Shown piece by piece: positions 27,335 to 29,314 of a stretch of 64,000 nucleotides of DNA (the stretch's first letter is position 1; every line of letters starts with the position of its first letter). Location: the NCBI GenBank assembly GCA_945872365.1, contig CAMBZJ010000002.1, positions 62,001-126,000 on the forward strand. The letters run 5' to 3'. The stretch comes from Klebsiella pneumoniae (GTDB lineage Bacteria > Desulfobacterota > Binatia > UBA12015). The notes below the pieces were generated by a model that saw only the letters and a list, made by a program, of their open reading frames with translations, made no database searches and had not been told where the DNA came from. Made by a program: the position numbers and the translations under genes.

Positions 27335-29314
27335 TCAGTGCGCTTCCAGCGCTGCGCGCAGGCTACGGGCGAAGTCGCGGGCATCGCCCACCACCCCGAG
27401 ATCGCAGCCCGCGAAGACCTCCGCCTCCGGATCGCGATTGACGGCGATGATCGCGCCGGCGCGTCCGACGCCCACCATGTGGTTGAAGGATCCGCGCACG
27501 CCGAGCGCCAGGTAGAGCGCGGGCGCGACGCTGCGCCCGGAGATTCCGATCTGCGCCTGGCGCGGCAGCCAGCCCAGGTCGCACACGCGACGCGTCGCGC
27601 CGGTCGCTCCGCCCATGCTTCGGGCGAGTGCGATGGCATCGGGTACGCCTTCGCGACCGAGTCCGAAGCCCGCGCAGACGACGCTCCGCGCGGCGTCCAG
27701 CGCCGCCGCCTCCGGGTCGACCTCGGACTCGAAGGAGATCCACCGCGGCGCCTTCCAGTCCAGGAAGGGCCCATCGAGCTTGAAGGGCCGCGCCGGCGGT
27801 CGCAATCCGTCGGGGCGCACCGGGTCGAGCATGCCAGGGCGGATCGTCGTCATCTCCGGGCGCGTCCGCGAGAGGATCGGCGCCACGACCTGGCCGCCGA
27901 AGGCCGGCTTGAGTTGCAGGAGTTCCCCGTCCGGCGACAACTCGACGCCGATCGCATCGCCAGTGAGTCCGAGCCGCATCTGCGCCGCGAGGCGCGGCAT
28001 GATGTCGCGTCCCAGCGAACTGGCCGGGGCCAGCACAATGCGCGGCCTCAAGGCGATCAAGGCCATCACGAGGAGCGGCGTGAACTCGTCTGGCGGGATC
28101 GCGAGCCGATCCGACGGGTGCAGCAGGACATCGGCCCCCAGGCACCCGAGATCGGCGGCGATCGAATCGACGGACGCCGAGTCGACCGCCGGGGCGCGCA
28201 GGGGACGCAGCAGGTCGTCCGGCAGCGATTCGACGACGAGGGCGGCGACGCCCGTTGCGAGTTGCCCCGCGAGTTCGTCGGCGGCGCCGAGGAGTTCGCT
28301 CGCCGAAGTCCGCAGCGCGCCCGACGGGGCGCGTTCCGCGACCACCCAGACGGCTCCGTAGGGATCGGCGATCCTGCGGTGGTCGGGCACGCGACCGCGG
28401 GTGGACTCCGCGTTTTCCGCAAGTATCTGCCGAACCAACTCGACTGCCGCCCGGACACCCTCGTCGGGATTCCCACGCGCATCGACGATGCGCCGGGTGC
28501 GCGAGACCTCGACCGGGCGCACCTCCGAAACCCAGGTGGGCGAGCCCGCCTGCCCGTACTCGGATGCGGCGCCACCCAGGCTCTCGACGGTCCACCGCTC
28601 GACAGGGGCGCTCGCCGCACGATCGGCGTCCGGCAGGACGAGGGGAACCCGGGTGCGCCAGCGATCCGTGCAACTGACCACGGCGGGCAACTCGGCTTCG
28701 AGGGCCACGCTCCCGTCGTCATTCTCGCATTCGACCCGCAGTTTCGGCGCCCCCGCAACCGGGGGGGCCGCGCTTTCGCCGAGCCTCGCCCCGACCGGGC
28801 CGGCTTCGGACGCGGCCCCGCCGCCCGGGAGGGATGCGGCTTCGAGCGGAGCGCCCGCCGCGTCGACGAGCGACATCCGCCGGACCCCGCCCAGAAAAGT
28901 CGCGTCGAGGAACTCGGCGAGCTGCGGCGCCACCTGCCCGGTCTCGGCATCGATGCTGTAGCGGCCCGCGAGGACGAGATCCGCACCGATCTCGGCGATC
29001 GCGCGCGCGAGCGTCCGCGCCGTGGCGAGCGTGTCGGACCCGGCGAAGCGGGCGTCGCAGAGGTGGATGGCGCGATCGACACCGAGGCCCAGGCACTCCC
29101 GAAGCGCTGCCTCCGCGGCGGGCGGGCCCATGGAGAGCGCGACGACGGTCGCACCGATCTCCGCCTTCAGGCGCAGCGCTTCGAGCAGCGCACGGCGGTC
29201 GAAGGGGTTGATCGCGAGCGGGACGCCGTCGCGGCGCAGCCTCCCGGTCGCCGGATCGAGCGCCAGTTCGGCGACCTCCGGCACCTGCTTCACGCAGACG
29301 AGTACCCTGATCAA
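27335..29314 (-). CDS. single-chain electron transfer flavoprotein (EtfB-EtfA fusion)
   Basis: 659 residues from TTG 29314, supported by GGGGTGG just upstream. The N-terminal half is EtfB: IRVLVCVKQVPEV, AINPFDRRALLEALRLK, GSDTLATARTLARAI, AETGQVAPQLAEFL. From about residue 325 it becomes EtfA: VWVVAERAPSGALRTSASEL, LAPASSLGRDIMPRLAAQM, then the FAD domain with CAGFGLGREG, QIGISGRSVAPALYLALGV and NRDPEAEVFAGCDLGVVGD. ETF normally is two proteins that pass electrons from acyl-CoA or other dehydrogenases to the quinone pool. The order is beta-alpha in one chain. No ETF-quinone oxidoreductase is nearby. Confidence 0.9.
   Translation of the reverse strand: MIRVLVCVKQVPEVAELALDPATGRLRRDGVPLAINPFDRRALLEALRLKAEIGATVVALSMGPPAAEAALRECLGLGVDRAIHLCDARFAGSDTLATARTLARAIAEIGADLVLAGRYSIDAETGQVAPQLAEFLDATFLGGVRRMSLVDAAGAPLEAASLPGGGAASEAGPVGARLGESAAPPVAGAPKLRVECENDDGSVALEAELPAVVSCTDRWRTRVPLVLPDADRAASAPVERWTVESLGGAASEYGQAGSPTWVSEVRPVEVSRTRRIVDARGNPDEGVRAAVELVRQILAENAESTRGRVPDHRRIADPYGAVWVVAERAPSGALRTSASELLGAADELAGQLATGVAALVVESLPDDLLRPLRAPAVDSASVDSIAADLGCLGADVLLHPSDRLAIPPDEFTPLLVMALIALRPRIVLAPASSLGRDIMPRLAAQMRLGLTGDAIGVELSPDGELLQLKPAFGGQVVAPILSRTRPEMTTIRPGMLDPVRPDGLRPPARPFKLDGPFLDWKAPRWISFESEVDPEAAALDAARSVVCAGFGLGREGVPDAIALARSMGGATGATRRVCDLGWLPRQAQIGISGRSVAPALYLALGVRGSFNHMVGVGRAGAIIAVNRDPEAEVFAGCDLGVVGDARDFARSLRAALEAH

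Follow-up and report, generated by a model that had tools for sequence, protein, structure and literature searches.

The window, the 64,000-nucleotide stretch of DNA analysed here, carries an electron transfer flavoprotein (ETF) in which the beta and alpha subunits are one chain, and this single-chain, beta-alpha ETF is real and conserved rather than an assembly error. By its motifs and its position in the tree the protein seems to descend from two-gene bifurcating (group 2) ETFs, and on the sequence evidence the fused clade is set apart by residue changes at both flavin sites. The first-pass annotation had noted neither the bifurcating-type ancestry nor the residue changes that run through the clade at both flavin sites.

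A conserved fusion of EtfB and EtfA

The gene is a single open frame of 659 residues without internal stops (Table 1), in which Pfam recognises ETF twice and ETF_alpha once (E-values of 6e-53 and 4e-22), so that the beta domain, EtfA domain I and the FAD-binding ETF_alpha domain are all present and membership of the ETFs is clear. The NCBIfam matches are to ETF subunits only, each under its curated cut-off. A phmmer search of the PDB places EtfB chains on residues 1-158 and EtfA chains on residues 317-657, and the order is thus beta then alpha; the first-pass call of a single-chain ETF in that order is borne out on both counts. No ferredoxin domain was found in the protein by Pfam or by inspection of the sequence, and the junction (residues 266-318) contains no cysteine.

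GC contents of 0.78/0.55/0.86 at the three codon positions are as expected for a real gene. Against a genome of the same genus (G001, locus L039), pN/pS is 0.175/0.487 in the beta half, 0.284/0.506 in the junction and 0.223/0.502 in the alpha half. With L116, a more distant locus, the junction comes out near neutral (0.587/0.602) and both halves are still conserved, a linker-like behaviour. The Ala/Gly/Pro-rich loop of the beta half is mostly missing from relatives and gapped in the family alignment.

Table 1. Parts of the fused ETF gene in window coordinates, with residue numbers of the 659-residue chain.
Feature	Position	Strand	Basis or remark
Whole fused ETF gene	27335..29314	-	TTG start at 29314, stop 27335-27337, 659 aa
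Beta half, domain III, residues ~1-265	28520..29314	-	Structure and sequence matches to EtfB chains
RxGV motif, here RDGV, residues 28-31	29222..29233	-	R28 and G30 invariant in the relatives' alignment A1
RxFxG (NAD motif) counterpart, ARFAG, residues 88-92, first Arg lost	29039..29053	-	
Beta-FAD motif counterpart, DAETGQVAP, residues 122-130	28925..28951	-	Bifurcating form: DGDTAQVGP
Ala/Gly/Pro-rich beta-half loop, residues 155-190, ~36 residues, variable, low-confidence	28745..28852	-	
SPT motif, residues 258-260, invariant (SPTWV 258-262)	28535..28543	-	
Junction, 53 residues, 266-318, with the EtfB-arm helix (283-302) and the alpha linker	28361..28519	-	
Alpha half, residues ~319-659, domains I and II	27338..28360	-	Pfam, PDB phmmer, structure alignment
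Lys469 in KPAFGG, at the place of the N5-contacting Arg of RPxFGG	27908..27910	-	
Alpha-FAD region, residues 574-616, with R575, H612 and clade-typical R607	27467..27595	-	Putative site

The unbroken beta-alpha frame recurs in 37 of 58 genomes (the host's own, 2 of the same genus, 11 of the same family and 44 of the same class), a count that rests on open reading frames read: 11 of 14 within the family and 26 of the 44 class members outside it. In the other 21 genomes the gene is cut at contig ends (G002, G005 and G010), frame-shifted (G052) or absent (17 genomes). The same continuous frame in independent genomes means that the fusion is no assembly artefact, and it answers, indirectly, the question of read support that the first-pass annotation had raised. 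That two adjacent genes were joined by a frameshift or a missing stop, or that an internal start also yields a free alpha subunit, is very improbable given this recurrence, even with GGAG upstream of a GTG at codon 324, for a Shine-Dalgarno sequence plus start near the alpha start occurs in 3 of 34 fused genes and in 87 of 1145 control windows, which is chance level. An internal start making a free alpha subunit was accordingly discarded as a candidate.

Flavin sites and ancestry

An AlphaFold2 model computed with 34 class-type sequences (pLDDT 88, pTM 0.89; disordered loop at residues 162-181 with pLDDT <50), which represents the protein without its flavins, suggests that the chain would fold into the usual three ETF domains. 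In VIA-align the closest solved relatives of its beta half are the bifurcating EtfB chains 4kpu (Z 28.5, 219 residues, rmsd 2.1), 5ol2 (28.4, 222 residues, 1.7) and 7koe (28.3, 225 residues, 1.6), at 39-40% identity, with the non-bifurcating 1o96 tied with them (Z 27.7). For the alpha half the best among the matches listed is human 2a1u (Z 26.2, 310 residues, rmsd 2.3).

The best PDB matches are group 2 ETFs (Bcd-EtfAB, 5ol2 and 4kpu; CarDE, 6fah; LctBC, 7qh2; T. maritima EtfABCX, 7koe), with which it shares the fold, RxGV, D122/T125/Q127/P130, SPT and the alpha-FAD Arg and His. Unlike them it is one chain, with Gly123 replaced by Ala or Ser, the N5 Arg by Lys and Ser607 mostly by Arg; unlike some of them it is without a ferredoxin domain, and its NAD motif is partly lost. 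The motifs expected of bifurcating ETFs (DGDTAQVGP, RxFxG, SPT and the N5 Arg) are set out in the available text of PMC9232219, the role of the N5 Arg also in that of PMC5691135, and RxGV and RPxFGG in that of PMC10734219. RDGV and SPTWV match RxGV and SPTxV, and against DGDTAQVGP the residues D122, T125, Q127, V128 and P130 are kept, with D124 changed to Glu and Gly123 to Ala. The full RxFxG motif is not found in the window protein.

Across the 37 fused sequences D122, T125 and S258-P-T260 are invariant, as are Arg575 and His612 of the putative alpha-FAD site, whose counterparts we take to be FAD contacts in known ETFs. Position 123 is Ala in 28 and Ser in 9, never Gly; Gly in 44/44 of the separate 'DG.T.Q' comparison set holds by construction, as that set was picked by Gly123. 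Position 469 is Lys in all 37, and the bifurcating N5 Arg of RPxFGG was thus not found in the clade; Arg stands there in 40/44 separate DG-motif ETFs and 45/56 other separate ETFs. Position 607, which from canonical ETFs we assume to sit by the alpha-FAD, is Arg in 30 fused sequences, Ser in 6 and Gly in 1, and Ser in all 106 rows outside the clade (44 DG-motif, 56 other separate, 6 archaeal fused). In the NAD motif 20/37 retain Arg88 and 37/37 retain Gly92; the two sequences of the sister family f8 that were aligned with the window protein read PLLAG and AVLAG.

A FastTree phylogeny of 143 non-redundant ETFs gathers the 37 class-type fused proteins into one clade (support 1.0), with separate ETFs as its sister (0.88), most of which carry an N-terminal alpha extension of about ferredoxin-domain length. 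An IQ-TREE analysis of 62 rows gives the fused clade (22 rows) an SH-aLRT of 100%, and its grouping with 8 separate bifurcating-motif ETFs 98. Short or gappy rows (L014, L062, L081, L089), duplicates and the divergent fused L090/L152 were left out of the counts and trees.

The host carries a second, separate EtfB/EtfA pair on its contig C27 (L135:8143-12432), with the canonical-looking motif DDDANQVGQ; the next gene encodes an EtfD-type CCG/Fer4 protein, a name that rests on domain content and position. A canonical group 1 ETF with an acceptor of the EtfD/EMO type has the same general carrier role, and differs from the fused protein in its beta-site motif and its branch. That the fused protein is itself a canonical ETF with bound AMP, serving acyl-CoA dehydrogenases and fused incidentally, would fit the ETF fold and the retained Arg575 and His612. 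We regard this as improbable, given that DAETGQVAP is non-canonical beside the motif of the host's separate pair and that the tree groups the fused protein with bifurcating-type ETFs; IQ-TREE places the pair L135 away from it. The available text of PMC12630350 has a small residue at position 123 in the bifurcating motif and a bulky one, the canonical group 1 mark, favouring AMP; all 37 fused sequences have Ala or Ser there, and the host's canonical pair has Asp.

Neighbouring genes and distribution

Upstream of the fused gene in the window are an a/b hydrolase and serS, downstream a PBP1A-like gene and a DUF748 gene (by Pfam, with serS and PBP1A named by reading the sequence), and none of these neighbours is a redox gene. 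In family f1 serS is kept upstream, in some genomes with the a/b hydrolase. In sister family f8 four of the six genomes have a GlcD-like FAD dehydrogenase gene 13-15 bp upstream: G032, G039, G045 and G025, where the contig start truncates it. G020 lacks it there, and the neighbour reading covered these five. The f8 dehydrogenase has FAD_binding_4 and FAD-oxidase_C domains; the three complete proteins are 71-78% identical pairwise, with GlcD as best NCBIfam match, below cut-off. Single cases elsewhere are SdhA/SdhB downstream (G053), a Zn-alcohol dehydrogenase upstream (G018) and isocitrate dehydrogenase upstream (G057), and a glycosyltransferase is also found in other families. One common operon partner was considered and dropped, as the neighbours vary between families, and this variation leaves no single partner supported. 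The first-pass suggestion of a special electron donor has indirect backing from f8. In the host, a search for an orthologue of the f8 dehydrogenase gave best long matches of 31-38% identity, too low to be accepted as close orthologues. The fixed stoichiometry that it also proposed follows trivially from one chain.

The host genome (3.1 Mb, 97% complete) encodes two haem-copper oxidases, which makes aerobic respiration likely. The ETF-QO models PF05187 and PF21162 have zero matches in the assembly and the FixC model NF007542 only weak partial ones, and no FixC or FixX stands beside the fused gene; the first-pass remark that no ETF:quinone oxidoreductase is nearby therefore extends to the whole assembly.

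In the phylum sample 180 of 198 genomes have a match, and 20 of the best hits outside the class, read as open reading frames, are all separate ETF genes, in agreement there with the first-pass statement that ETF subunits are nearly always separate. As a general statement it is too sweeping: in this family the fused form is the norm, and archaea have a second fused type. Members of the same fused clade outside the class are on contigs titled archaeon RBG_16_50_20, Blastocatellia and Frankiales, and in G477; these may reflect transfer or misbinning. The phylum of L038 gives 178 of 199 genomes with a match and 2 fused among 20 loci examined, that of the archaeal genome of L037 gives 100 of 200, with 6 besides L150 fused among 20 loci. 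Fused beta-ferredoxin-alpha proteins, suggested by long open frames, were rejected, the five such loci that were read being separate genes; three of the five came from the L038-phylum sample.

The archaeal fused ETF (L160-L164, L167; presumably Sulfolobales) is a beta-alpha protein in one frame, as is the class type. It is a separate branch that keeps Gly123, Arg469 and Ser607 in 6/6, unlike the class type, and is followed, in both loci read for gene order (L208:7055-10363, L209:6942-10243), by two genes that Pfam and NCBIfam mark in L208 as FixC-like and FixX-like; such genes are absent beside the class-type gene. It forms its own clade in both FastTree and IQ-TREE. Two independent fusions, suggested by this position, are not claimed, since a topology that joins all fused rows in a single clade survives the AU test (p-AU 0.257).

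Several further fused ETFs were seen in passing. Within the phylum and outside the class, G132 has one of 665 aa with another motif type, SDGDTAHVP (L226:2577-4571). An Anaerolineae MAG has a divergent one of 644 aa at 26% identity (L090:1057-5023); the gene directly upstream, which is quinone-reductase-like and encodes an EtfD-like CCG/Fer4 protein, shares 20 bp with it. In an archaeal MAG (L037:1670-4600) a fused ETF, which could be there by transfer or misbinning, has a Rieske ferredoxin 32 bp downstream, with a redoxin next in line.

A literature search, with subscription papers largely outside it, brought up no description that we recognised of a fused EtfB-EtfA; the available text of PMC6085437 has neither 'fused' nor 'fusion', and that of PMC11323534 no 'fused'. 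Fused ETFs are already known as a kind, also in archaea, and the class-type protein is a fresh variant.

Probable role and significance

We favour, with a probability of roughly 0.55, a single-chain, bifurcating-derived ETF without ferredoxin domain that does not bifurcate and is dedicated to two-electron transport for an FAD-linked dehydrogenase. Domain II with the alpha-FAD would swing between the electron donor and a base carrying the second nucleotide, probably still FAD. On the way from a two-gene bifurcating ancestor the ferredoxin domain would have been lost and the residues round both flavins changed, so that parts needed for NADH-driven ferredoxin reduction were lost or altered and the second nucleotide site was retained. 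In f8 the donor would be the GlcD-like 2-hydroxyacid dehydrogenase. Electrons may pass to the quinone pool via the EtfD-like Fe-S protein, or to another acceptor; that protein is a candidate because it is the sole ETF-oxidising candidate found in the genome, and electron transfer to it is our guess by exclusion.

A working bifurcating or confurcating flavoprotein is distinctly less probable. Such an enzyme would resemble Ldh-EtfAB (LctBCD) of Acetobacterium woodii, in which a dehydrogenase whose domain type we take to be FAD_binding_4/FAD-oxidase_C adjoins the ETF, as in f8; the f8 order, most of the group 2 motifs (RxGV, D122/T125/Q127, SPT and, in part, RxFxG) and the bifurcating motif of the nearest separate relatives all point that way. 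Its parts, no better placed than the whole, would be NAD(H) at the beta-FAD, the GlcD-like dehydrogenase or an acyl-CoA dehydrogenase on the high-potential side and a soluble ferredoxin or flavodoxin on the low-potential side. The loss of Gly123 and of the N5 Arg in all 37 sequences, the missing ferredoxin domain, the altered NAD motifs of the window and f8 proteins and the terminal oxidases of the host all weigh against it. LctC and LctB, in the available text of PMC9232219, are separate and have a [4Fe-4S] domain, Gly123 and Arg205, unlike the fused protein. Replacing the N5 Arg by Ala, Gln or Met abolishes bifurcation in known enzymes according to the available text of PMC9232219 and PMC10734219, the latter with Gln and Met variants unable to reduce ferredoxin. 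For bifurcating enzymes the former text names 'arginine/lysine' at the position, and Lys469 keeps the positive charge, which leaves bifurcation some probability.

A broader formulation, to which we give tentative and less than even credence, is that of a separate, undescribed lineage, probably of aerobic uncultured bacteria, with one chain, two flavins and bifurcating descent, in which Lys469, Ala/Ser123 and Arg607 would re-tune both potentials, either for a respiratory carrier or for bifurcation with a new partner.

It is not settled which residues let an ETF split electrons, and the chief interest of the fused clade lies in its paired changes at both flavin sites. It is a natural experiment in which, over 37 sequences, the bifurcation signature is mostly kept, the critical Arg has become Lys and the critical Gly has become Ala or Ser, in a single chain that allows simple 1:1 expression. 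The flavins, potentials and partner of the fused ETF would directly test the proposed roles of the changed residues, and the clade could show how bifurcating ETFs become ordinary carriers.
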